Source: Pseudogemmatithrix spongiicola (GTDB lineage Bacteria > Gemmatimonadota > Gemmatimonadetes > Gemmatimonadales > Gemmatimonadaceae). Taken from it: a DNA stretch of 64,000 bases. Below are positions 27,296 to 39,891 of this stretch, piece by piece. The translations under genes were made by a program, and so were the position numbers. Positions within the stretch are counted from its first letter, which is position 1. Every line of letters begins with the position of its first letter. The notes beneath the pieces are model-generated. The model was given only the letters and a program-made list of their open reading frames with translations, was not told where the DNA came from and ran no database searches. The stretch is taken from contig NZ_CP130613.1 of the NCBI RefSeq assembly GCF_030623445.1, forward strand, positions 806,001 through 870,000, in the 5' to 3' direction.

Positions 27296-27862
27296 ATGAA
27301 GCGCGCTGTACTCGCTGCCTCGCTCGTGCTCGTGACTGCTGCCTGTGGTGGTGGCGGCGCGACTCCCGGTCCGACGCCGAACCCGGACATCCCGACGTGG
27401 TACACGTCGATCCCGACGGACCCGAATATGCTGTATCAGGCGGCGACCTCCGAGTCGCGTGACCTGCAGCTTGCGGTGAACAAGGCGACGGCCGACGGCC
27501 GCAACGGCATCGCGCAGCAGATGGAGACGAAGTTCCAGGGTCTCTCCGAGCGCTTCCAGGAAGAGACGGGCCTGGGCGCCGAGTCCGAGTTGCTTGACCA
27601 GTTCCGCACGGCCTACCGCGGCGTCGTGAACCAGACGCTGAACGGGTCGCGCGTGAGCCGTCAGGAAATCAAGCAGAACGGCGTGACGTACCGCGCCTTC
27701 GTGTTGGTGGAAATGCCGATCGGTGCCGCGAACCAGGCGCTGATGCAGCGCATCCGCTCCAACCAGGCGATGTACACGCGCTTCCGTGCGGCCCAGGCGT
27801 TCGAGGAGCTGGATCGTCAGGTGAAGGCCTACGAGGAGTCGCAGCGCAGCGGCAATCCGTAA
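27296..27862 (+). CDS. LPP20-type lipoprotein
   Basis: The 188-residue protein begins with a lipoprotein signal (lipobox VTAAC, Cys17) and should be anchored in the envelope. The mature part starts PDIPTWYTSIPTDPNMLY and has a long Ala/Gln-rich helical stretch (AVNKATADGRNGIAQQMETK), the pattern of the LPP20 lipoprotein domain. The ATG at 27296 was chosen for the signal peptide and the strong GGAGGG site five bases before it. It opens the caspase cluster: 31 bases later comes a second lipoprotein, then the caspase-like gene. LPP20 domains have no known enzyme activity; an envelope structural or chaperone role is a guess. Confidence 0.8.
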   Translation: MKRAVLAASLVLVTAACGGGGATPGPTPNPDIPTWYTSIPTDPNMLYQAATSESRDLQLAVNKATADGRNGIAQQMETKFQGLSERFQEETGLGAESELLDQFRTAYRGVVNQTLNGSRVSRQEIKQNGVTYRAFVLVEMPIGAANQALMQRIRSNQAMYTRFRAAQAFEELDRQVKAYEESQRSGNP

Positions 27863-27893
27863 GCGTTCGGTTGTAGTCGTACCAGTTCTTCAG

Positions 27894-28682
27894 ATGGAGA
27901 CGCGCTGGTCCCGCCGGTGGCTGCCGCTGACGACAGTGGCTCTGCTGCTGGCGGGACTTGCCTGTGCTGGGGGACCCCGTCAGCCGGCCACGGTGACGCT
28001 TCGCGCGGCGCCGGTCAGCTACGCGTACCCCGTCTGGTTCGTGCAGGGGGGTGGGGTGAGCGGGTTGACGGTGGGCTATGCCCCGGCTTATACGACGAAG
28101 GCGGCGGCGGAGAGCGTGGCGGTCATCGATGCGCACGCGCGGGCTCGGCTGACGAGCCGGATGCGGCTGGTGGTGGAGAAGGGTTTCGAGGCGGTGGCTG
28201 GAGAGACACTGGAAAGTCAGGGCGAGGACAGCCAGGAAACGCCCCTCGCCGACAGCTTCCCGGTGTTCGTGAAAGGCAGCGTGACCGTGGGCGGCATGCA
28301 CGTGGTCGCGGTGACCCCAGACTCCACGGGCCCGGGGTTGCCGAGCGGGCTGGTGACCTTGGGTTCGGAGCCCCCGGGCTGGATCCAGGTGCCGCCGGCG
28401 GCCGACGGCGACTGGTGGTACGCGGTAGGGGTGTCAACTGCGTACTTCCGGGAGTACTATGGATGGGATGAAGCCGAGCGCCACGGGCGGCAAACGCTGG
28501 CCCTGAACGCCGGTGCACGTATGCGTTCGTTGATGGAGCAGACGGAAGAAGAGCAGCGCGCGGTGTTGCAGGTCAGCACGGCCGTTGAGTTGGGTTCGGT
28601 GTCCGTGGTGTCGCGCTGGCGTGATGCCAACAACTGCTATGTGCTGGTCCGCGGCCGCGTATTGGCCGTTCGGACGCGGTAA
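27894..28682 (+). CDS. Second LPP20-like lipoprotein
   Basis: The 262 residues start with a lipoprotein signal (LLLAGLAC, Cys24). The mature N-terminal half is beta-rich and not recognised (VSYAYPVWFVQGG, VKGSVTVGGMHVV). The C-terminal half looks like an LPP20 domain (PPGWIQVPPAADGDWWYAVG, then an Ala/Arg-rich helix and SVVSRWRDANNCYVLVRG). It may therefore be a distant relative of the preceding gene. It lies 31 bases after that gene and 30 before the caspase-like gene, in one apparent transcript. Function unknown. Confidence 0.75.
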   Translation: METRWSRRWLPLTTVALLLAGLACAGGPRQPATVTLRAAPVSYAYPVWFVQGGGVSGLTVGYAPAYTTKAAAESVAVIDAHARARLTSRMRLVVEKGFEAVAGETLESQGEDSQETPLADSFPVFVKGSVTVGGMHVVAVTPDSTGPGLPSGLVTLGSEPPGWIQVPPAADGDWWYAVGVSTAYFREYYGWDEAERHGRQTLALNAGARMRSLMEQTEEEQRAVLQVSTAVELGSVSVVSRWRDANNCYVLVRGRVLAVRTR

Positions 28683-28712
28683 GGTTCCCCACTGCTGGAG
28701 AGGATGACTGCC

Positions 28713-31241
28713 ATGGTCCCCACCTACGTCACCTTGACTGGTCGCGCGCTCCGTGCGGCACTGCTGGTGCTTGTTGCCCCGCTCACCCTCGCGGCGCAGC
28801 AGTCGAACACCGCCGAGATCGAGGTCATCGCGGACAGCGTCGGCCAGCCGGTGCTGGTGAACGGCCGGCAACTGGGGACGACGCCGTCCACGCTGCGCAT
28901 CCAGCCGGGCAACGGCGTGCGCATCGAGGTGGGCCGCGGCGCGCGGATGCGCGGCTTGTCGCTCGACGTACCCGCGGGCTCGCGGATCAAGGTTGAGATG
29001 ACGATGCCGCGCGATACGCAGCCGCTGCCACCGGTGCGCACGGAGGCGGAGGTCCAGCGGCAGCTGTTGGCGTCGAATGCGTATCCGATGCCTCGCGAGC
29101 CGGTCGCGCCGGTGCAGCCGCGTCGGCCGGGGTTCTTCGGCAGCGTCCTGATCGGCGGTGCGCTGGCCGGCGGTGCGGCGTTCGCGGGCTCCGCGGCGCT
29201 GTGCGACCAGAAGTTCACGTCGCCGTCGCCGTCGGGCGGCTACGTCAACGGGCAGTACTATGCGCCGGGGCAGCACTCGCTCGGACCGCTCGCCAGCTGC
29301 CGGGCGGGCGCGGCCGGCATCGGTGCGCTGGTCGGCACGGGCGTGATCCACATGATCCGCCGCGGCGGATACCGTGGGAAGCAGGAGAGCTTCACGCGGG
29401 ACCAGGCGCAGTACGCCACGGAGCGTACCGCCTACGAGCGTGCGGTGCAGCAGCGGGAGCAGCGCATCAAGGACGACGTGCAGAAGTCGCTCGACGAGGA
29501 CCAGTCGCGTCGCCGCGAAGTGGCTTCGGCGAACGATCGCGCGATCCGCGCGAACCAAGAGCTTCCGCTCGTGACGTTCCTGAACACGCAGCGCACGCAG
29601 GTGGTCGGCGGGCGGACGAACTCGCAGCCGCCGCAGTTGCGCATCGAGAACGTGTCGTTTGCCGATGCGGACGGAGACTCGATCATTTCCGCCGGCGAGC
29701 GCGCCACGGTGCGCGTGCGGCTCCGCAACTCGGGGCGCGGGGCCGGCGTGAACGTGCGCGTCGAGGCCAAGTCGAATTCGCGCCTGCGCTTCCAGCCGGG
29801 ACAGCTCGGCGCGGTCGCGCCGGGCGATGTCCGTGAGGCCGTGATCGAAGTGGTGGCCACGCAGGACGTGATTGACGAGCAGGCGGCGCTGGAGATCATC
29901 GCCGTCGAAGGCAATGGCTTCGACTCGCAGCCGCTGCAGCTCCAGGTGCCGGTGCTGGCGTATCGGCCACCGGACCTGCAGATCCTCGGTGCGCAGGCGG
30001 TGGATGGCGAAGGCAAGACGATCATCGCGCCGGGCACGCAGGCGACGGTCACGGTGCGCGTGCAGAACCGCGGCGAGGGCAAGGCGGAGAACGTGCGGGT
30101 GACGATCGCCCGCGGCGAGAACGTGTTCTTCACGGACGACTTCCAGGCGCCGACGATCACGCGCGAGCTCGGCACGATGCGTCCGGGGCAGTACGAGGAC
30201 ATCAAGGTCGAGGTGCTGCCGAACAACCGCGCGACGGCGTTCGCGCTGACGGCGGCCGTCACCGAAGGTTCGGGGCGCTACAACGTGCCGGCGCGCGACC
30301 TCGGCTTGGCGCTGAACAGCGCCTCGCGCGGCATGGCGCAGGTGGTCGCGGTGCAGGCACCGCGGCCCGTGCCGGGCGGCGCGTCGGCGGCCGCGGGGAG
30401 CTTCGGGTCCGACCTCCTGCAGAACATCCCGACCGTGGCCGAGAACCCCAACGCGATCGCCGTGATCATCGGCAACGCAACGTACCAGGGCGACATTCCG
30501 CCGGTGCAGTTCGCGGCGAACGATGCGGAGGTCATGGCCCAGTACGCCCAGAAGGCACTGGGAATCCGCCCCGGGAACATCATTCGGCTGAACAATGCCA
30601 CCGGCACCCAGCTGCGCACGACCTTCGGCGTGCAGAACAATCCGAACGGTCGCCTGCGCAGCCAGATCCGTCCGGGCGTGAGCGAGGTCTTCGTCTTCTA
30701 CTCGGGTCACGGGGCACCGGACGCCAGCGAGCGAAAGGCCTACATCATGCCGTCCGATGCCGACGCGTCGTTCCTCTCGACGACCGGTTTCAGCGTGGAT
30801 GTGCTCTACGAGAACCTGGCGGCGATGGGAGCCAAGCACGTGACCGTGGTGCTCGATGCGTGCTTCTCGGGTGCAACGGGCAACGGCGACATGCTCATTC
30901 GGTCGGCCTCACCGATCGGCATCCAGGTCAATGATCCGGCGCAGCGCTTCCAGGGCGGGAATGCGACGATCATCGCGGCCGCCGAGGGCCAGCAGCTGGC
31001 CAATTGGTACGACGAGAAGAACCACGGCTTGTTGACGTATTTCTTCCTGAAGGGGCTGCAGGGTGCCGCGGACAAGGATGGCAACGGCGTGACGGTTGAC
31101 GAGATGAAGGCTTTCCTGACGGACCAGTCGTACGGCATCCCATACGAGGCGCGCCGCCTGCACGGGCGCGATCAGACGCCTCAGGTGTTCGGCACCGGCA
31201 GCCGTGTGCTGCGTCCGGCACCGGCCGGCGGGCAGCCGTAA
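28713..31241 (+). CDS. Exported PEGA-CARDB-caspase (C14-like) protein
   Basis: The 842-residue protein starts with a signal peptide (ALLVLVAPLTLAAQQ). The ATG at 28713 is chosen because GGAGAGG lies nine bases upstream; an in-frame ATG at 28704 sits directly on that site. In order there are a PEGA-like domain (about 33-97), a glycine-rich hydrophobic segment (140-165), a coiled-coil Gln/Arg/Glu region (225-285), two CARDB-like beta modules (305-415, 420-530) and a caspase-like domain (about 580-800). The catalytic dyad is His666 in FYSGHG and Cys717 in LDACFSG, both intact. It is a likely exported cysteine protease with specificity after basic residues or Asp unknown. The stop overlaps the next gene by one base. 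Confidence 0.85.
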   Translation: MVPTYVTLTGRALRAALLVLVAPLTLAAQQSNTAEIEVIADSVGQPVLVNGRQLGTTPSTLRIQPGNGVRIEVGRGARMRGLSLDVPAGSRIKVEMTMPRDTQPLPPVRTEAEVQRQLLASNAYPMPREPVAPVQPRRPGFFGSVLIGGALAGGAAFAGSAALCDQKFTSPSPSGGYVNGQYYAPGQHSLGPLASCRAGAAGIGALVGTGVIHMIRRGGYRGKQESFTRDQAQYATERTAYERAVQQREQRIKDDVQKSLDEDQSRRREVASANDRAIRANQELPLVTFLNTQRTQVVGGRTNSQPPQLRIENVSFADADGDSIISAGERATVRVRLRNSGRGAGVNVRVEAKSNSRLRFQPGQLGAVAPGDVREAVIEVVATQDVIDEQAALEIIAVEGNGFDSQPLQLQVPVLAYRPPDLQILGAQAVDGEGKTIIAPGTQATVTVRVQNRGEGKAENVRVTIARGENVFFTDDFQAPTITRELGTMRPGQYEDIKVEVLPNNRATAFALTAAVTEGSGRYNVPARDLGLALNSASRGMAQVVAVQAPRPVPGGASAAAGSFGSDLLQNIPTVAENPNAIAVIIGNATYQGDIPPVQFAANDAEVMAQYAQKALGIRPGNIIRLNNATGTQLRTTFGVQNNPNGRLRSQIRPGVSEVFVFYSGHGAPDASERKAYIMPSDADASFLSTTGFSVDVLYENLAAMGAKHVTVVLDACFSGATGNGDMLIRSASPIGIQVNDPAQRFQGGNATIIAAAEGQQLANWYDEKNHGLLTYFFLKGLQGAADKDGNGVTVDEMKAFLTDQSYGIPYEARRLHGRDQTPQVFGTGSRVLRPAPAGGQP

Positions 31242-34096
31242 TGCGTCAGCTTCGGTGGGGCCTCGTGGCCGCGGTTGCGTTGATCTCGTGCGTGCCGGAG
31301 ATCACGGTGGAGCCGCCGGAGGCGGGAACGGTGACTGTCACGGTCGCATCGTCGACGATCCTTCAGGGTGGCACCACGCAAGCGACGGCGAATGCCGTCG
31401 ACACGCGCGGTCGTGCGTTGACGAGCGAGCCGAGGACGTGGTCGTCGTCGAACAACTCCATTGCGACCGTGAGCCCCACCGGGTTGGTGACGGGTGTGGG
31501 CGCGGGAACCGCCAACATCTCGGCGACGGTACTCGGCCGAGCCGGATCGGTGGCGGTCACGGTGGCGCCGCCGGTGGCGTCGGTGCAGGTGACGGCGCCG
31601 GATTCATCGATTGTGCGCGGGCAGACCGTGCAGCTCACGGCCACGCCGCGGACGGCGGGCGGTGCGGTCGTGACGGGTCGCACGGTGAACTGGTCGTCGG
31701 CGAGCCCGTCGGTGGCGACGGTGTCGACGTCTGGGCTCGTGTCGGCCGTTGGGGTCGGGTCGGCCGTCATCACGGCGACCGTTGACGGCATCAATGGTAC
31801 GTTGACGATCACCGTGGCGACGGACGTCGCGACGGTGCAGGTGGCGCCGACCACGGCGACCCTGACGGAGACGACCCCGACTCAGCAGTACACGGCTACG
31901 CCGCGCAACGCCGCGAACACGGCGTTGACGGGCCTTACCGTCACGTGGTCCAGCTTGGATACGACCATCGCGACGGTGAGCGCGAGTGGGCTGGTGACGG
32001 CCGTGCGTCCGGGGTCGACGACGATCCGGGCGACGGTGGATGGGGTGAATGGCAACGCAACGGCGAACGTGAACGTGTGTTTCCCCACCCCGTACAATTT
32101 CGGGCCCACGGTCAACGGGTCCCTGGTCTCCGGCGACTGTGGGGTGGCGGGCGGCGGCGTTGAGGATCTCTTCCGGTCCACCGAGCCGAGCACTCGGCTC
32201 ATCTATTGGGCGATGCCGCAGCCGACGGCCGCCGGTCAGGTCTCCGTACTGCGAGAGCTGCGGCCTGGCGTGGTCACGAGCGATGCACTGCCGGCGGGCG
32301 GCGGCAACTTCGCCTATACCGTCGCGGGCGGCGGCACGACGCGGTTCCGCATCCGCACGAGCGGCTTCGCGTTGCCGTTCAACTACGAGTTCAACGTGCC
32401 GGCCTCCGATCCGGCGCAGTCCGCGTCGTGGCCGGCGGCTGCCTGCCGGACGATCCCGATCATCTACGGCTCCACGACGATTTCGGTGAACCGCGCACTG
32501 GCGGCTGGGGACTGCCAGTCGTCGTCGCGACTGTTCCATTCGTGGCTTGTCGCGCTGCAGGCCGGCGAGCAGATCACGGTCACGCAGAACTCCACGGCAA
32601 TCGATCCCATCGTGTACATCACGCAGGGCGGCGTGGATCTTGCCTCGGACAACAACAGTGGCGGCGGCGTCAATGCGCGCCTCGTGTACACCGCGCCGTC
32701 GACGGGGAACTACGAAGTGCGCACGATGGCGGCGGTAGCCGGCACGTCGGGCGCATACAGTGCCACGTTCACGATCGCCCAGGCAGCGGTGGCGTCCGTG
32801 ACCGTGACGAGTGCCGCAACCTCAGTCGTGCGCGGCCAGACGATCCAGTACACCGCGACGACCCGCGACGCCTCCAACAACGTCCTCACCGGTCGCACGG
32901 TCACGTGGTCCTCGGACAACACGTCCATCGCGACCGTCAGCGCGACGGGCGTGGTGACGGGAGTCGGCGTGGGTTCGACGACGATCCGCGCCACCAGCGA
33001 GGGCGTGCAGGGCACGCGTGCCATCACGGTCACCACCGACGTCAACGCGGTGGTCGTGACGCCGTCCACCTTCACGCTCAATGCAGCAGGCGCGACGCAG
33101 CAGCTGACCGCTGACCCGCGCAATGCGTCGAACGTCTCGCTCACGGGCCGCACGGTCACGTGGAGCAGCCTCAACACGGCCGTGGCGACGGTGAGCGCCA
33201 GCGGCCTCGTGACGGCGGTGGCGAACGGCACCGCCACGATCCGTGCCACGGTCGAGGGCGTGATCGGCCAGGCAACGGCCACCGTGAACATCACCGTCAA
33301 TCCGTGCACGGCGACGGCGTACACGCTGGGCTCGACCATCAACGGCCAGGTCACGACGAGCGACTGCTTGTTCGAGACGAACTTCTGGGAAGACCGGTTC
33401 TCGTTCTCGCGGGCGTCGAGTGCCTACATCACCTTCCCGGTGACGCCCTCGGGTGGGACCGTGGACCTCGTCACGTACACCACGCAGAACAGCGCGGGCA
33501 CGGGCACGCCATACTTCTGGACGCGCTTCAGCGCCGCGGGCACTGCGAATCGGTTGTTCGGCTCGGGGACCTTCATCTTCGCGGTCGGGAACGCGACCAC
33601 GCCGCCCGTGAGCTACTCGCTCAGCTCGTCGGTGGCGACCAGCGTGCCGCCGGCCTGCCAGTCGTTGTTCACCATCATCGGCAACGGCATCAGCATCGGC
33701 AGCAGCTGGGATGCGTCATCCTGCACGCGGCTGGGCAAGCGCGAGGGCCGCTTCCGCGTGCGCCTGAACGCCGGACAGCAGATCACGGTCGGCATGTCGT
33801 CCACGATCGATACGTACCTCGAACTCTGGGCGACGAACGCGGACACCGTCACCACGCAGGTCGCGTTCGACGATGACGGTGCGGGCGGCACGAACTCGCT
33901 CATGACCTACACGGCCAGCACCGGTGGCTTCTTCGAGATCAAGACGACGCACTTCAGCAGCACGGCGCAGACGGGGACGTACACTCTCACCATCTCGACG
34001 TCGCCGCTGAGCATCCAGGCGCCGTCGCTGCTCTCGCCATCCGTGAACATGGGTGCGCCGCTCATGGCTCCTGCGCGACACCGAGGGCGGCAGTGA
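31241..34096 (+). CDS. Lipoprotein with five Big_2 domains
   Basis: The 951-residue protein has a lipobox LISC at Cys17. It contains five bacterial Ig-like (Big_2) domains at about 30-108, 113-193, 197-278, 518-598 and 602-686, each with the TWSS...IATVS.TGLVTGV pattern. Between domains 3 and 4 and after domain 5 lie beta-rich modules with Cys pairs (NGSLVSGDC, NGQVTTSDC) and aromatic turns that resemble pre-peptidase (PPC) domains: three or four in all. It overlaps the caspase-like gene start by one base, so the two are coupled. It is probably a surface or envelope binding or scaffold protein; the ligand is unknown. Confidence 0.85.
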   Translation: MRQLRWGLVAAVALISCVPEITVEPPEAGTVTVTVASSTILQGGTTQATANAVDTRGRALTSEPRTWSSSNNSIATVSPTGLVTGVGAGTANISATVLGRAGSVAVTVAPPVASVQVTAPDSSIVRGQTVQLTATPRTAGGAVVTGRTVNWSSASPSVATVSTSGLVSAVGVGSAVITATVDGINGTLTITVATDVATVQVAPTTATLTETTPTQQYTATPRNAANTALTGLTVTWSSLDTTIATVSASGLVTAVRPGSTTIRATVDGVNGNATANVNVCFPTPYNFGPTVNGSLVSGDCGVAGGGVEDLFRSTEPSTRLIYWAMPQPTAAGQVSVLRELRPGVVTSDALPAGGGNFAYTVAGGGTTRFRIRTSGFALPFNYEFNVPASDPAQSASWPAAACRTIPIIYGSTTISVNRALAAGDCQSSSRLFHSWLVALQAGEQITVTQNSTAIDPIVYITQGGVDLASDNNSGGGVNARLVYTAPSTGNYEVRTMAAVAGTSGAYSATFTIAQAAVASVTVTSAATSVVRGQTIQYTATTRDASNNVLTGRTVTWSSDNTSIATVSATGVVTGVGVGSTTIRATSEGVQGTRAITVTTDVNAVVVTPSTFTLNAAGATQQLTADPRNASNVSLTGRTVTWSSLNTAVATVSASGLVTAVANGTATIRATVEGVIGQATATVNITVNPCTATAYTLGSTINGQVTTSDCLFETNFWEDRFSFSRASSAYITFPVTPSGGTVDLVTYTTQNSAGTGTPYFWTRFSAAGTANRLFGSGTFIFAVGNATTPPVSYSLSSSVATSVPPACQSLFTIIGNGISIGSSWDASSCTRLGKREGRFRVRLNAGQQITVGMSSTIDTYLELWATNADTVTTQVAFDDDGAGGTNSLMTYTASTGGFFEIKTTHFSSTAQTGTYTLTISTSPLSIQAPSLLSPSVNMGAPLMAPARHRGRQ

Positions 34097-34965
34097 GGCC
34101 AGTCGGTGACATGAAGGTCGGGGTCGCCATCATCGGATTGTTCCTCCTGGGCGCCGCACCCGTCGGCGCCCAGGCCGGGCGCTGCTCGCCGGGCGTCGAG
34201 CAGGAGTGGCAGCGCCTGCGCGTCACGCGGTTCATTCCGCCGGACAAGTCGCGCGCGCAGATGGAGCAGGTGCTGCTCGGTGAGGCGCGGCGGCAGGCGG
34301 TGCAGCAAGCCGTCGGCATCACGGTCTCCACGAGCACCACGCGCTCGCAGTACGAGGCGATGGCCAACGGGGAGTCGCGTGAGTACCGCGACAACTTCTT
34401 CGAACTCTACTCGCAGGATGCGGCCGGCCTGATCGTCGAGGAGAAGCACACGACCACCAGCCGCGGGGCGGATTCGCTGTCGATCGCCTACGAGGCTCGC
34501 GTCGGTTGCGAGTCCGGGTCCGAGGCCGCGGGGTTCACCGCGTCCGTTTCGACGAATCAAGACACGTACCGCGAGAAGGACTACATCACGATCCGCGTCG
34601 AGGTGTCGGATTCCGCGCGCGTGTACCTGTTCTCGATCGCCCAGGACGGCGTGGCGCGGCTCATCTTCCCGAACCGCGTGGACCTGAACAACGCGTTCGG
34701 TGCCGGCGACGCCCGCTTCGTCCCGCGCACCGGCGCGCCGTACAGCTTCACCGCCGAACTCGATTCGCGGTTCGGGCCGTCGCAAAGCGAGATGCTGATG
34801 GGGATCTTCTACCGCGGCCGCGGCCCCGAGCTCTTCCGGAGTGCCGACGCGTTCCAGAAGGAGTTCACCCTCGAGGAAATCAATCGCGTGCTGCTGCGCG
34901 TGCCGCGGTCGGAGCGCAGTCGCGTGCTGGCCGGGTACGAGATCCGCAGCCGTGCCGACCGCTGA
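34093..34965 (+). CDS. DUF4384 protein, first paralogue
   Basis: The 290-residue protein has a signal peptide (VGVAIIGLFLLGAAPVGA). The GTG at 34093 overlaps the upstream stop and has a gaggg site five bases before it; an ATG at 34111 is the other option. Residues 30-150 hold a helical part (EQEWQRLRVTRFIPPDKSRA, EYRDNFFELYSQDAAG), and 155-250 a DUF4384 domain (VYLFSIAQDGVARLIFPN). The next gene encodes a clear paralogue. DUF4384 proteins often occur with or fused to caspase-like proteases, which fits the neighbourhood; a substrate or sensor role is inference. Confidence 0.82.
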   Translation: MRPVGDMKVGVAIIGLFLLGAAPVGAQAGRCSPGVEQEWQRLRVTRFIPPDKSRAQMEQVLLGEARRQAVQQAVGITVSTSTTRSQYEAMANGESREYRDNFFELYSQDAAGLIVEEKHTTTSRGADSLSIAYEARVGCESGSEAAGFTASVSTNQDTYREKDYITIRVEVSDSARVYLFSIAQDGVARLIFPNRVDLNNAFGAGDARFVPRTGAPYSFTAELDSRFGPSQSEMLMGIFYRGRGPELFRSADAFQKEFTLEEINRVLLRVPRSERSRVLAGYEIRSRADR

Positions 34966-35914
34966 GCGGCGCGGCTGCGCCTTGTCGCGCTGCCTGCATC
35001 GGGTGCTCTTCACGGCCGCTGCTTCGACGGCGGTCCTGAGCCTCGCCTGCTCGTCGCCGCCTGCTGCGCGCCCCGCGCCCGCGGCGGCGCCCGCTGCGGA
35101 TCCCTGGCCCGCGTCCTCCGGGCAACCGCGAAGCGCGAGCTGCGGGCCGACCCTCGAACAGGAGTGGCAGCGCATCCGGCTCGCCCGCTTCGTGCCGGCG
35201 GACCGCTCCCGCGCGCAGATGGAGCAGGTGCTGCTCAGCGAGGCTCGCGTGCTGGCGGTGCAGCAGGCTGTCGGCATCACGATCGCGACGACGACCTCGC
35301 GGGCGCAGTACGAGGCGATGGCGAACGGCGAGAGCCGCGAGTACCGGGACCATTTCTTCGAGCTCTACTCGCAGGACGCCGCCGGCGTCATCGTGGAGGA
35401 ACGGCATCGTGCGGCGCGGCCGCACGCGGATTCGATCACGGTGTTCTACGAGGCCCGCGTCGCCTGCGACGCGGGCACGGAGGCTGCCGGCCTCACGGCG
35501 TCGGTGAGCACGGACCAGCTGGTGTACCGAGAGGGTGATGGCATCCGCATCACGGCGGAGGCGTCCGACGCCACGCGACTCTACCTGTTCTCGGTGCTGC
35601 AGGATGGGTCGGCGTGGCTGATCTTCCCCAACCAAGCGGATTCGTCGAATCGGCTCGCGCCGGGGACGCGACGGTCCATCCCGAGGCCGGGCGCCAACTA
35701 CGAACTCAAGGCGCAACTCGAGCCGCGCTTCGGCGCCGCGCAATCCGAACTCCTCTTCGCCATCTTCTACACCGGCGATGGTCCGGCGCCGTTCCGGGCC
35801 CAGGATGCGTTTACGGCGAAGTTCTCGCTGGAGCAGATCAATCGGGTTCTGCTCCGCATCCCGCGCGCCGAGCGCAGCCGCGCGGTGGCAGGCTACGAGA
35901 TTCGCGCGCGATAG
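34952..35914 (+). CDS. DUF4384 lipoprotein, second paralogue
   Basis: This 320-residue protein is a tandem copy of the preceding gene: EQEWQRIRLARFVPADRSRA, EYRDHFFELYSQDAAG and LYLFSVLQDGSAWLIFPN match block by block. It differs in having a lipobox (LSLAC, Cys33 from this start), then an Ala/Pro linker, so it is membrane-anchored, whereas the first copy looks soluble. The GTG at 34952 overlaps the upstream stop by 14 bases; a TTG at 34982 gives a shorter signal. It closes the caspase cluster before the regulator gene. Function unknown. Confidence 0.8.
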   Translation: MPTAERRGCALSRCLHRVLFTAAASTAVLSLACSSPPAARPAPAAAPAADPWPASSGQPRSASCGPTLEQEWQRIRLARFVPADRSRAQMEQVLLSEARVLAVQQAVGITIATTTSRAQYEAMANGESREYRDHFFELYSQDAAGVIVEERHRAARPHADSITVFYEARVACDAGTEAAGLTASVSTDQLVYREGDGIRITAEASDATRLYLFSVLQDGSAWLIFPNQADSSNRLAPGTRRSIPRPGANYELKAQLEPRFGAAQSELLFAIFYTGDGPAPFRAQDAFTAKFSLEQINRVLLRIPRAERSRAVAGYEIRAR

Positions 35915-35982: not shown

Positions 35983-38900
35983 ATGCCGACCTCCGCTGAC
36001 CTGCCCGTGCACCTGAAGTCGTTCGGGGCACCTCAACTCGAGCGACTCGAGGACGGGGTGGCGCACGCTGTCCTCCGCGGCGGCAAACCCCTCGCCCTGC
36101 TGATCTACCTCAGCACCCTCGACGGCCGCCCCGACACCCGCGAACATCTCGCCGACCTCCTCTGGGGCGACGAATCCCCGGACCGCTCCCGCGCCTCGCT
36201 CCGCCAAGCCGTCTACGCGCTCAAGCAAGCCCTCGGCGACGAGATCCTCCGTAGCGACCGCGAGTTCCTCTCCGTCGACATCGAGCGGCTGCCCAGCGAC
36301 CGCCACGCCTTCCTCGCCGCCTCGCGTCGCAGCGACTTCGACGCGATGCTCGCCGCCTACGGCGGTGCCTTCTGCGACGGGCTGCCGATCGGCGGCGCGG
36401 TGGAGTTCGAACGCTGGATGCGCGCCGAGCGGCTGCGCCTGGAACGGCTCTTGTTGGATCAAGCCGCTGGTGTCATCCCGGCGCGACTGGCGGCCGGCGA
36501 GAGCGAGGCCGCGCTGCACGTCGCGCGCGAGCTGGATCGCCTGTTCCCCGACCGTTCCGAAGTCGTCGTGCAGCTCTTCGACGCGCTGGTCTCGACGGGC
36601 AATCGCATGGAGGCCATCGAGCGCCTGAGCGCCCACGGCGCGCGACTGGCCTCGCAGGAGATGTCGCTGCCGCCGCCGCTGGCCGAGCGCATCGCGCGGG
36701 CGCGGCGTGCGGCGGCGGATCCGGCGCACGTGCCGGCGGGGCCGGCGATGGCGCTCGCGACGGTCGGCCAACAGCTCGTGGGCCGCGAGCCGTTGCTCGG
36801 TGAGCTCTCGCGCATGGCGGAGAAGTCGCGCGCGGGCGCGGTGCAGCGCGTGCTGCTCTACGGGCCCGCGGGCGTGGGCAAGACGCGCGTGCTCGACGAG
36901 CTGGAGGCACGCCTGCGGCTGCGCGGCGCCCGCGTGGTGCGCGTGAGCGTGCAGCCGGCCATGCAGGACGTGCGCTTCGCCGCGCTGGTGGACCTGGTGC
37001 GCGCGCTGTGCGCGCTGCCGGGTGCCCTCGGCATCACGGAGCTCTCGGCGACGCAGCTCATCGGCATCGTGCCGGAACTGCGCGAGCGATTTCCCGGCGC
37101 GACGATCGCTCGTGCGGTGCGGAGCGACGCCGACCGCCGCCGCGCGCTGCAGGATGCGCTCGCCGACCTGCTGGCGTCGGTGTCCGAGGAACGTCTGGTC
37201 GTCGTGATGGTCGACAACCTGCACCACGCGGACGAGGAATCGCTGCTGGTGATCGGCGGGACACGGCCCATCGCCACCAGCCGCCTGCTGCAGCTGTGGA
37301 CCTCGCGCAACTCGACGGACACCGCGGTGGGCACCGACCTCAGCGTGATCGAGGTCTTGCCCTTCGGCGTCGACGATATCCGCGCGCTGCTCTCGGCGGT
37401 GGCCACGCTGCCGGAGATTCCCTGGGCGGACGACCTCGTGGTCGCCCTCGAACGGCGCTCGCGCGGCGTGCCGCAGCTCGTGCTCGCCATGGTGCGCTCG
37501 CTCGGCGCGGCGCGCCTGCTGCACGTCGAGCGAGGGGCGTGGACCAGCGATCGGCCCGACGCACTGCTGGCGATGGCCAACGAGACGGCGGGCACGACGG
37601 CGCTCGTCGCGGGGCTCGACCCGTTGGCGCGCCTCTCGCTCGAGGTGCTCGCCACCTGGGGACGTCCGCTGGAGGAGCGCGATTTCATCGGGACCATGCA
37701 GAGTCGCACGGCGCCTCCCACGGAGGACGCCCTGCGCCAAGCGCTGCGTCATCTCGAAGGACTGGGGCTCGCGCAGTCCCGCGACCTCACCTGGGCCCTG
37801 GCGCACGATACCATCGCCGATGAGTTGCGCAGTGTGCCGGCGCCGGTGGCGGCGGAATCGCCGGCGGAGCTGCTGTTCCGCTACTGGCGGAGCGCCGAGC
37901 GACTCACCGTGGCGGTGCTGGGCCAACTCGCCCTGATCGCCGGGCGTGATGAATCGTCGGCGATGGCGGTGCGGTTGGGGCGCGCGGCGCTGGAAGCCCC
38001 GAAGGTGCGCGAGTCGGGACTGCGCGGCCGCGCCTTGGGGCGCCGCCTCGCGCGCATGTGTGGCCGGCCGGAGTGGGAAGGGCGCATCCTCCGAGGGTTC
38101 GGCTTCTGGGGACGCCAATCGGAGCGCGCACGCGTGCTCGCGACGGTTGGTGGCATGCTCCTGTTGGGCGCTGTCTCGTGGCTCGCGTTGCGGCTGCAGC
38201 CGCGCGTGGTCGTGCTGACGCCGCCGATGGCGGAATCGGGCATCAAGATCGCGATGCCGCTCGAGGTACAGCCGCGCGTGCGCGTTGAAGACGGATTCGG
38301 ACGACCCTGGCGTACGCCACTTGCCGTCGCGGTGCGCACGGATGCGGGGCGGCTTTTTGGCGATACCATACGGACCACACGGGACGGCACGGCGCAGTTC
38401 GAGCGTCTGGCCTTGCAGCTCGACGCAGTCGAGGCGTCGGAGCCGGCGCGCCAAGTGCATCTGCTCGTGACCGGGCCGTGGTTCGTCCGCGCCGCGCGGG
38501 CGCCCATGACCGGTGTGTTCACCGGGACGGTCGGCGATGACTTCCGGATCACCAAGCTGGAGGTGAACCGCGTGCCGGTCGGCGACTCGTTGATCGTGGA
38601 CGTCGCGGCGGGGGATTCGCTGCTGGTGGATCTGACCTTTCAGTACACCACCGTGCGCGCGACGGCGAACTACCTCGTCGGGGCGGCGGCGACATGGGAG
38701 CCTCGCGAGGACGCCTCGATCCGCCTCGCTGGACTGCCGCGGCCCGTGCACGAGGCGTGGCGCCACGTCACGTTCAGCCTGCGTGCCCCGTCGGCGCCGG
38801 GCAATCACTACGTCGTGGTGCTGTTCGGCTTGGACGACACCGTCGAGCACATGTTCGCGAGTACGAACTGGATGTTCGGCGCGCCGCGCTGGAATGACGG

Positions 38901-39117
38901 CGATGACATCCAGGACCAACCGCCGCAGTTCTACGAGGAGCTACGCCTCCTCGGGCGCGCGAAGGTGGGCCACACCATGCGCGGGCGGCTACGCACACGC
39001 CAGGCGGATGTGCGCGTCGGCGACTCGGTGAACGTGACGGTCAGCCCGTCGCGTGAAGAGGGGTGGGAATGGGCCATCGGGCGTGCCATCCACGTTCGCG
39101 TGCGCCCCGTGCGCTGA
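35983..39117 (+). CDS. Membrane-anchored SARP/BTAD-AAA regulator (AfsR-like)
   Basis: The 1044-residue protein has, in order, a winged-helix DNA-binding region (about 10-95, HLADLLWGDESPDRSRASLR), a bacterial transcription-activator helical domain (105-240), an AAA/STAND-type ATPase with Walker A GPAGVGKT at 294-301, a helical C-terminal ATPase half, one membrane helix (about 718-738, VGGMLLLGAVSWLALRL) and then about 300 residues that would lie outside the cytoplasm, rich in beta strands (LLVDLTFQYTTVRATANYLV). AfsR-like proteins activate genes on phosphorylation or nucleotide binding. The membrane helix and outer domain are unusual and resemble the CadC/ToxR layout. It follows the caspase cluster and may sense envelope state to control it. 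Confidence 0.85.
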   Translation: MPTSADLPVHLKSFGAPQLERLEDGVAHAVLRGGKPLALLIYLSTLDGRPDTREHLADLLWGDESPDRSRASLRQAVYALKQALGDEILRSDREFLSVDIERLPSDRHAFLAASRRSDFDAMLAAYGGAFCDGLPIGGAVEFERWMRAERLRLERLLLDQAAGVIPARLAAGESEAALHVARELDRLFPDRSEVVVQLFDALVSTGNRMEAIERLSAHGARLASQEMSLPPPLAERIARARRAAADPAHVPAGPAMALATVGQQLVGREPLLGELSRMAEKSRAGAVQRVLLYGPAGVGKTRVLDELEARLRLRGARVVRVSVQPAMQDVRFAALVDLVRALCALPGALGITELSATQLIGIVPELRERFPGATIARAVRSDADRRRALQDALADLLASVSEERLVVVMVDNLHHADEESLLVIGGTRPIATSRLLQLWTSRNSTDTAVGTDLSVIEVLPFGVDDIRALLSAVATLPEIPWADDLVVALERRSRGVPQLVLAMVRSLGAARLLHVERGAWTSDRPDALLAMANETAGTTALVAGLDPLARLSLEVLATWGRPLEERDFIGTMQSRTAPPTEDALRQALRHLEGLGLAQSRDLTWALAHDTIADELRSVPAPVAAESPAELLFRYWRSAERLTVAVLGQLALIAGRDESSAMAVRLGRAALEAPKVRESGLRGRALGRRLARMCGRPEWEGRILRGFGFWGRQSERARVLATVGGMLLLGAVSWLALRLQPRVVVLTPPMAESGIKIAMPLEVQPRVRVEDGFGRPWRTPLAVAVRTDAGRLFGDTIRTTRDGTAQFERLALQLDAVEASEPARQVHLLVTGPWFVRAARAPMTGVFTGTVGDDFRITKLEVNRVPVGDSLIVDVAAGDSLLVDLTFQYTTVRATANYLVGAAATWEPREDASIRLAGLPRPVHEAWRHVTFSLRAPSAPGNHYVVVLFGLDDTVEHMFASTNWMFGAPRWNDGDDIQDQPPQFYEELRLLGRAKVGHTMRGRLRTRQADVRVGDSVNVTVSPSREEGWEWAIGRAIHVRVRPVR

Positions 39118-39132: not shown

Positions 39133-39891
39133 CTACCAGGTCGGCTCAGGAATGGCGCGCGTCGCTGGCCGCCCGAAGCGGTAGCCCTGGAAAAGCCGCA
39201 CGCCCATGTCGCGCAGCACGGCAACCTCGTCGTCCGTCTCCACGCCCTCGGCGATCACCGTGATGTCGAGTGACGCGCAGGTCTGCAGCGTGCCCGCGAT
39301 GATCGCGCGGCGCGTGCGGTCCTGGTGGATGTTGCGGATCAAGGCCATGTCGAGCTTGATGAGGTCGGGCTCGAAATCCGCCAGCAGGGCAAGGCCCGCG
39401 TAGCCGGCCCCGAAGTCGTCGATGGCGGTCTTGAAGCCCTTCCGCTTGTACTCGGCGAAGATGCCCTTGAGATGCGCCCGGTCGCCGATGGGTTCGGCTT
39501 CGTTGACCTCGAAGATGATCTGCGAGGTGGGGAAGCCGAGTTCGGCGGCGGCCTCGAGTGTGACGCGGATGCAGGTCTCGGGGCGGTACACCGCGTTCGG
39601 CAGGAAGTTGATCGAGACCGGCGTCGACAGCTGCAGCTCGGCGGCGACGCTGATCGCCGCCACGCGCGCGGCTTGGTCGAAGCGATAGCGATTGTGGTCG
39701 TTGACCTTCGCCAGCACGTCCGCGGCGCCCTCGCCGTGGAGGCCCCGCACGAGCGCCTCGTGCGCGAAGACCGTCTTGGCCTCCACGTCCACGATGGGCT
39801 GGAAGGCCATGGTGATGGCGAAGTCGAGGCCTGCGCCGTCTCGGCAGGCGCGGCAGCTCAGGGCGGGCGGAGGGGAGGGCAGGGCGGGCAC
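39133..39891 (-). CDS. EAL-domain cyclic-di-GMP phosphodiesterase
   Basis: EAL proteins break cyclic-di-GMP to pGpG. The 252 residues are almost one EAL domain: the motif EAL is at 45-47 in AHEALVRG, with [15 protein letters not shown], the loop [19 protein letters not shown] and [11 protein letters not shown]. All main metal-binding residues appear present, so activity is expected. No GGDEF or sensor domain is attached; the first 25 residues include a short CRAC segment. The start is GTG. A GATACT element ends six bases upstream, predicting a leaderless message. It is divergent from glyS. Confidence 0.9.

Follow-up and report, generated by a model that had tools for sequence, protein, structure and literature searches.

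What does a caspase-like protease do when it carries an export signal and is encoded among lipoprotein genes? Bacterial relatives of caspases are mostly discussed as cytosolic enzymes of death or defence, and a locus of Pseudogemmatithrix spongiicola raises this question for the cell envelope. The locus lies downstream of purA in the stretch of 64,000 nucleotides analysed here (contig NZ_CP130613.1, positions 806,001 to 870,000; hereafter the window). The host genome is complete (3.26 Mb), and its genus includes many planktonic Gemmatimonadota metagenome-assembled genomes. We read seven neighbouring plus-strand genes as a cassette for envelope proteolysis and signalling rather than as a cytosolic defence or death system, and we put the probability of this reading at roughly 0.55. 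The genes of the locus, in window positions, are the following:

g1, 27296-27862, plus strand: LPP20-family lipoprotein of 188 aa, with a near-invariant Cys17 after a hydrophobic stretch
g2, 27894-28682, plus strand: divergent LPP20-like protein of 262 aa, a probable lipoprotein
g3, 28704-31241, plus strand: exported caspase-like protease of 845 aa
g4, 31241-34096, plus strand: Big_2 repeat lipoprotein of 951 aa, with the lipobox LISC
g5, 34093-34965, plus strand: exported DUF4384 protein, with an alternative ATG start at 34111
g6, 34952-35914 (GTG start at 34952 or TTG start at 34982), plus strand: second DUF4384 protein, a probable lipoprotein, 60% identical to g5
g7, 35983-39117, plus strand: SARP-type regulator with a winged helix, BTAD and AAA_16 domains and one membrane helix
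EAL-domain protein, 39133-39891, minus strand: probable cyclic di-GMP phosphodiesterase, of uncertain cassette membership

Gaps of 31 and 21 bases separate g1 from g2 and g2 from g3, whereas g3 and g4 overlap by 1 base and g4 and g5 by 4. Whether g5 and g6 overlap depends on which g6 start is taken, and g7 follows after 68 bases. The export signals were assessed by eye and by hydropathy: the N-termini of g1, g2, g4 and g6 are hydrophobic and end in Cys, and those of g3 and g5 are Sec-type signals. An earlier, sequence-only reading of this DNA had described six same-strand genes with short gaps or overlaps and exported or lipidated products. Their coordinates and N-termini agree with ours, but the set was incomplete, as it left out the seventh same-strand gene, g7. 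In the whole genome, g3 is the only match to Pfam PF00656, and g5 and g6 are the only strong matches to DUF4384. The search for promoters and terminators gave nothing fitting an operon above chance, and recent acquisition of foreign DNA was rejected because the GC content is flat across the locus. The flanking genes dapA, purA and glyS are housekeeping genes. Both here and in the close relative G002, the EAL-domain gene separates g7 from glyS; it is not at the purA-glyS site of cassette-free relatives and may belong to the insert.

The caspase domain of g3 matches PF00656 with 44.5 bits against a cut-off of 21.4 (E 1.9e-11), which places the protein in peptidase family C14. A signal peptide (ending TLAAQQ), a weak PEGA match, a hydrophobic hairpin (143-216) and a coiled coil (232-285) are followed by two Ig-like/CARDB domains (312-540) and the caspase domain at about 584-830. 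The alignment of 22 relatives showed that H669, D718 and C720 are invariant. The His/Cys dyad had already been recognised as intact under the numbers His666 and Cys717, which are the same residues counted from a start 9 bases after our ATG at 28704. In the AlphaFold model, the Ig-like region and the caspase domain are well predicted, and the dyad lies in the active site, with H669 and C720 inside the predicted strands 661-673 and 712-720 or at their ends, the canonical caspase positions; the model leaves the possible membrane hairpin unresolved. D718 is the Asp of the motif DACFSG, two positions ahead of the Cys; by homology to metacaspases, we take it to lie in the acidic S1 pocket. Judged from its sequence, g3 would be an active protease.

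The best caspase match among solved structures was human MALT1 (3v4o; template modelling (TM) score 0.70 over the target, E 9.1e-10), followed by metacaspases; some of the top-listed matches (integrins, transglutaminases) presumably fit the Ig-like part only. The search of solved structures with a caspase profile gave no match. The Pfam scan detected no death domain in g3, whose N-terminus has the signal peptide and PEGA region instead, and for this reason g3 was not filed as a paracaspase. An acidic EF-hand-like loop was located near the end of the caspase domain in g3 and its relatives. As a calcium loop it was not used: the loose pattern fits 21 of 32 sequences, and the copy in g3 (about aa 790-801) is degenerate. 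In other module caspases of the Gemmatimonadaceae, BamE-like repeats replace the PEGA and hairpin region at the N-terminus (L105 6791-8953, a weak Pfam match; the others by eye).

A tree of 32 caspase domains gathered all caspases of this module in one group (support 91/92), with four other Gemmatimonadota caspases apart; g3 grouped with the G002 copy and with the unlinked copies of G009 and G001. Nearly all caspases that lie next to DUF4384 and LPP20 genes carry export signals, and the Ignavibacteriales copy (L100) has a lipobox. These predicted signals, spread across the subfamily, support the earlier placement of the caspase outside the cytoplasm. That placement had also been called unusual; the predicted location is supported but is not in itself new, since export of a minority of bacterial caspases has already been inferred (PMC3501461).

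The neighbourhood comparison showed which of these genes travel together. The six-gene order, which the sequence-only reading had treated as the unit, occurs complete in one related genome, G002. As a conserved unit it was rejected because it was found there only: what recurs is a triad of caspase, DUF4384 and LPP20, and the Big_2 lipoprotein is a variable add-on. The triad is adjacent in 24 distinct loci. Genera of the Gemmatimonadota account for 22 of these; of the other two, one belongs to G062, a distant genome in the phylum sample, and the other to an Ignavibacteriales contig (all loci: the window, G002, G004, G012, G013, G027, G028, G034, G062, G073, G090, G096, G113, G121, G143, G179, G220, G238, G252, L100, L109, L111, L115 and L117). 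Its commonest order is caspase-DUF4384-LPP20 with short gaps or overlaps, and the order in L100 is LPP20-g2-caspase-DUF4384. In the phylum sample, the caspase was present at the locus in 17 of the 21 genomes with a g1-type LPP20, and any PF00656 match was found in 43 of 249 genomes. We estimate that chance alone would place a caspase within 12 kb with a probability below 1% per genome (24 kb out of about 3.6 Mb). In G062 (L083 10732-17927), three tandem caspase genes stand beside DUF4384 and LPP20.

Within the genus, LPP20, the membrane SARP and the module-type caspase are present in the identical 7 of 17 genomes. These seven genomes do not form one clade in the purA tree, which requires at least two gains or losses, each involving all three genes; given the few events, we regard this joint gain and loss as supportive rather than as proof. 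Where the cassette is absent, purA is followed directly by glyS (G005), by a single unrelated FAD (flavin adenine dinucleotide)-type gene (G003, G010), or by such a gene together with sequence in which no cassette genes were recognised (G015).

Could g3 be a general secreted protease whose neighbours are unrelated and share with it only secretion or expression? G001 and G009 have unlinked caspase copies, as this explanation would expect. It has little chance of being right in view of the joint presence and absence, the recurrence of the triad across families and in a second phylum, and the caspases fused in frame to DUF4384 in four other genomes of the phylum (G239, G208, G228, G114). The triad loci, the joint presence and absence and the empty sites bear out the proposal that these genes belong together; the single envelope complex proposed in the earlier reading stays putative.

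The partner families were examined by profile comparison. The g1 protein alone scores 21.9 bits against Pfam LPP20, below the cut-off of 25.9; 17 of the 21 members of its family match LPP20, and the family profile matches the Helicobacter pylori LPP20 structure 5ok8 at 1.2e-5, which makes g1 a member of LPP20. The g2 protein itself has no Pfam match, and its family compares with LPP20 at a profile-profile E of 2.8e-9, with a Pfam LPP20 match in 4 of 13 members; by these profiles, the g2 family is probably a divergent LPP20 relative. Of the two LPP20 lipoproteins proposed earlier, g1 is upheld by its family profile, and g2 only as a probable distant relative. DUF4384 (PF14326) was found in g5 and g6 with 48.7 and 50.1 bits against a cut-off of 27 (E 8e-13 and 3e-13), and structure comparison gave generic Ig-like matches only, with a low TM score. 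For the N-terminal domain of the DUF4384 proteins, a predicted strand-helix-strand-strand order is the sole hint of an LPP20-like fold. This fold is not claimed, as the profile comparison was not significant (probability 4.9) and FlgT_N matched weakly in 1 of 20.

Lpp20, FlgP and FlgT have an SHS2-like fold in common, and FlgP builds ring scaffolds (PMC12222027). Through this fold kinship, the LPP20 proteins of the cassette may act as a scaffold. Like these envelope lipoproteins, g1 has a lipoprotein signal besides its 5ok8 match; unlike them, it is not accompanied by flagellar genes; its partner is g2, joined in some family members by the caspase. A scan with a tighter LPP20 alignment found the LPP20 and g2 pair also in Latescibacterota, Balneolia, Ignavibacteria, Bacteroidetes and Calditrichota, mostly without a caspase. 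We take the pair to be an ancient element of the envelope that probably acquired the caspase and DUF4384 afterwards. In another phylum (L097 6266-8924), an MltC-type lytic transglycosylase (Mltc_N and SLT) and a larger LPP20 protein lie near the pair and hint at a cell-wall role for it. Similar coiled-coil proteins were seen by eye in L096, L088, L107 and L121.

Selection separates g4 from the rest of the cassette. Against G002, the ratio of nonsynonymous to synonymous substitution rates (dN/dS) was 0.04 for g1, the most conserved cassette gene (purA 0.05), 0.17 for g2, 0.18 for g3, 0.16 for g5, 0.29 for g6 and 0.19 for g7. The same ratio was 0.69 for g4, with 45% identity and a change of length, and g4 therefore behaves like a surface-exposed variable component. 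It matches Big_2 with E 6e-55 and, by eye, probably also contains PPC-like repeats. This gene brings up surface-protein maturation as an alternative, in which the caspase would trim or release the adhesin-like lipoprotein at the cell surface and the SARP would merely control expression of the operon. The overlap of g3 with g4 and the fast change of g4, as expected of surface proteins, fit this explanation, and Big_2/PPC-type lipoproteins adjoin the triad also in G034, G004, G012, G013 and L109. Most triad loci have no such lipoprotein beside them, however, so it cannot be the general substrate, and we consider maturation possible, if rather unlikely, as the function of the cassette.

The last gene, g7, would connect the cassette to transcription. 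It matches BTAD with 28.5 bits (cut-off 22.1) and AAA_16 with 64, and Trans_reg_C with 21.2, below the cut-off of 26.2; with these domains it falls among the SARP regulators. Hydropathy indicated a cytoplasmic winged-helix, BTAD and AAA part, a single membrane helix at aa 718-736 with an Arg-rich inner side, and a conserved extracytoplasmic domain of about 305 aa with no Pfam family above cut-off. Conservation in a part of this outer domain (alignment positions 751-850) exceeds that in most of the ATPase region. ToxR- and CadC-type regulators are built alike, with one membrane helix and a domain outside. With g7, the cassette includes a transcription factor anchored in the membrane. Elsewhere, signalling proteins next to the module include AAA_16 SARPs lacking such a helix, a LuxR-AAA_16 regulator and a Ser/Thr kinase (L073 12145-16323, L071 2073-5525, L035 11190-14225, L030 8740-13563).

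Just outside the membrane helix of g7, a Pro-Arg pair is identical in all ten aligned sequences, two of which are near-identical copies; here it reads LQPR. For cleavage by MALT1, P1 must be Arg, and a hydrophobic residue is favoured at P4 (PMC3500650). The LQPR sequence fits this pattern, and it is taken only as a lead because many other sites would fit too. A MALT1-like circuit outside the cytoplasm, in which the exported Ig-caspase, held on LPP20 and DUF4384 proteins, would cut the SARP at this pair so that envelope events change gene expression, is a quite unlikely version of the mechanism.

The presence of an AAA regulator next to a caspase also recalls known conflict architectures. The cassette could then be an envelope executioner or anti-phage effector with a SARP/STAND-like AAA sensor, lysing the cell or attacking neighbours; its patchy distribution and varying content would suit this, as would matches of g3 to a PADLOC "caspase" and an NCBIfam EACC1-type model. 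Both matches are weak (a generic 26.8 bits, and 61 against a cut-off of 140), PADLOC recognised none of the other six genes, and there are no defence genes in the cassette. The predicted export of the protease, strong purifying selection on the core genes and the old envelope pair formed by LPP20 and g2 make such a function improbable. Assignment to the anti-phage caspase systems was rejected, with weak generic matches only and housekeeping neighbours.

We therefore return to envelope proteolysis and signalling, which could work as follows. The cassette, which came or went as one unit at the purA-glyS site, would send its caspase through Sec to work in the periplasm or outer envelope. Among C14 enzymes, the non-metazoan ones that have been characterised cut after Arg or Lys (PMC5756287), and by analogy g3 probably does so as well. 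The LPP20-type lipoproteins (g1, g2) and the DUF4384 proteins (g5, g6) would keep the caspase in a complex beneath the outer membrane and regulate when it becomes active, with DUF4384 as the putative activator. The targets of the system would lie in the envelope; the variable Big_2 lipoprotein, the membrane SARP or both are the likeliest. The extracytoplasmic domain of the SARP would sense the complex or be changed by it, linking the state of the envelope to transcription. In this scheme, the sequences show the export signals, the intact active site, the conserved and co-occurring genes and, by hydropathy, the single-pass topology of g7; that the proteins form a complex, that g3 cleaves and does so after Arg or Lys, what it cleaves and which way the signal runs are inferred.

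Several observations weigh against this proposal. LPP20 and g2 occur without a caspase in many genomes, which implies another, older role of these lipoproteins. G001 and G009 keep the SARP, LPP20 and DUF4384 around purA and glyS with the caspase elsewhere in the genome, which makes linkage in one operon dispensable. Only this genus yielded the complete membrane SARP; elsewhere, other AAA regulators, kinases or none lie nearby. The N-terminal third of g3 is poorly modelled (predicted local distance difference test, about 30), which leaves its exact topology unsettled.

Compared with known systems, g3 resembles bacterial orthocaspases and metacaspases (C14, PF00656) in its caspase domain, His/Cys dyad, DACFSG Asp and metacaspase fold match. 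It differs from most of those studied, which are cytosolic or cyanobacterial, in its predicted export, its CARDB/Ig domains (BamE-like in a relative) and its LPP20 and DUF4384 partners. With MALT1 it shares the fold of its best PDB match, Ig-like domains flanking the protease and the expected Arg specificity; it is bacterial and predicted to be extracytoplasmic, no death domain was found in it, and the likeness was seen in the fold. In cyanobacterial orthocaspases, DUF4384 occurs as an accessory domain (23 cases; PMC8283722). Each cassette of the kind described here instead encodes one or two DUF4384 proteins as genes of their own, with export signals and a further domain at the N-terminus. 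From the other SARP regulators with winged helix, BTAD and AAA, g7 differs by its membrane helix and extracytoplasmic domain, and a limited literature search found no description of this combination. The first genome survey had recorded no intact dyad in Gemmatimonadota, from one sequence (PMC3501461), and extracellular roles of bacterial caspases have been speculated on (PMC4933709). Within the literature searched, no paper mentions both LPP20 and DUF4384, and three name DUF4384 together with caspase; in that literature, neither the linked module nor its occurrence across phyla nor the connection to a membrane SARP appears to have been described.

The linked set thus gives the unexplained exported caspases a concrete list of partners, namely LPP20 and DUF4384, joined in one genus by a transcription factor in the membrane. 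DUF4384 gains a testable role as a caspase partner, and caspase-type proteolysis may act in bacterial envelope signalling.

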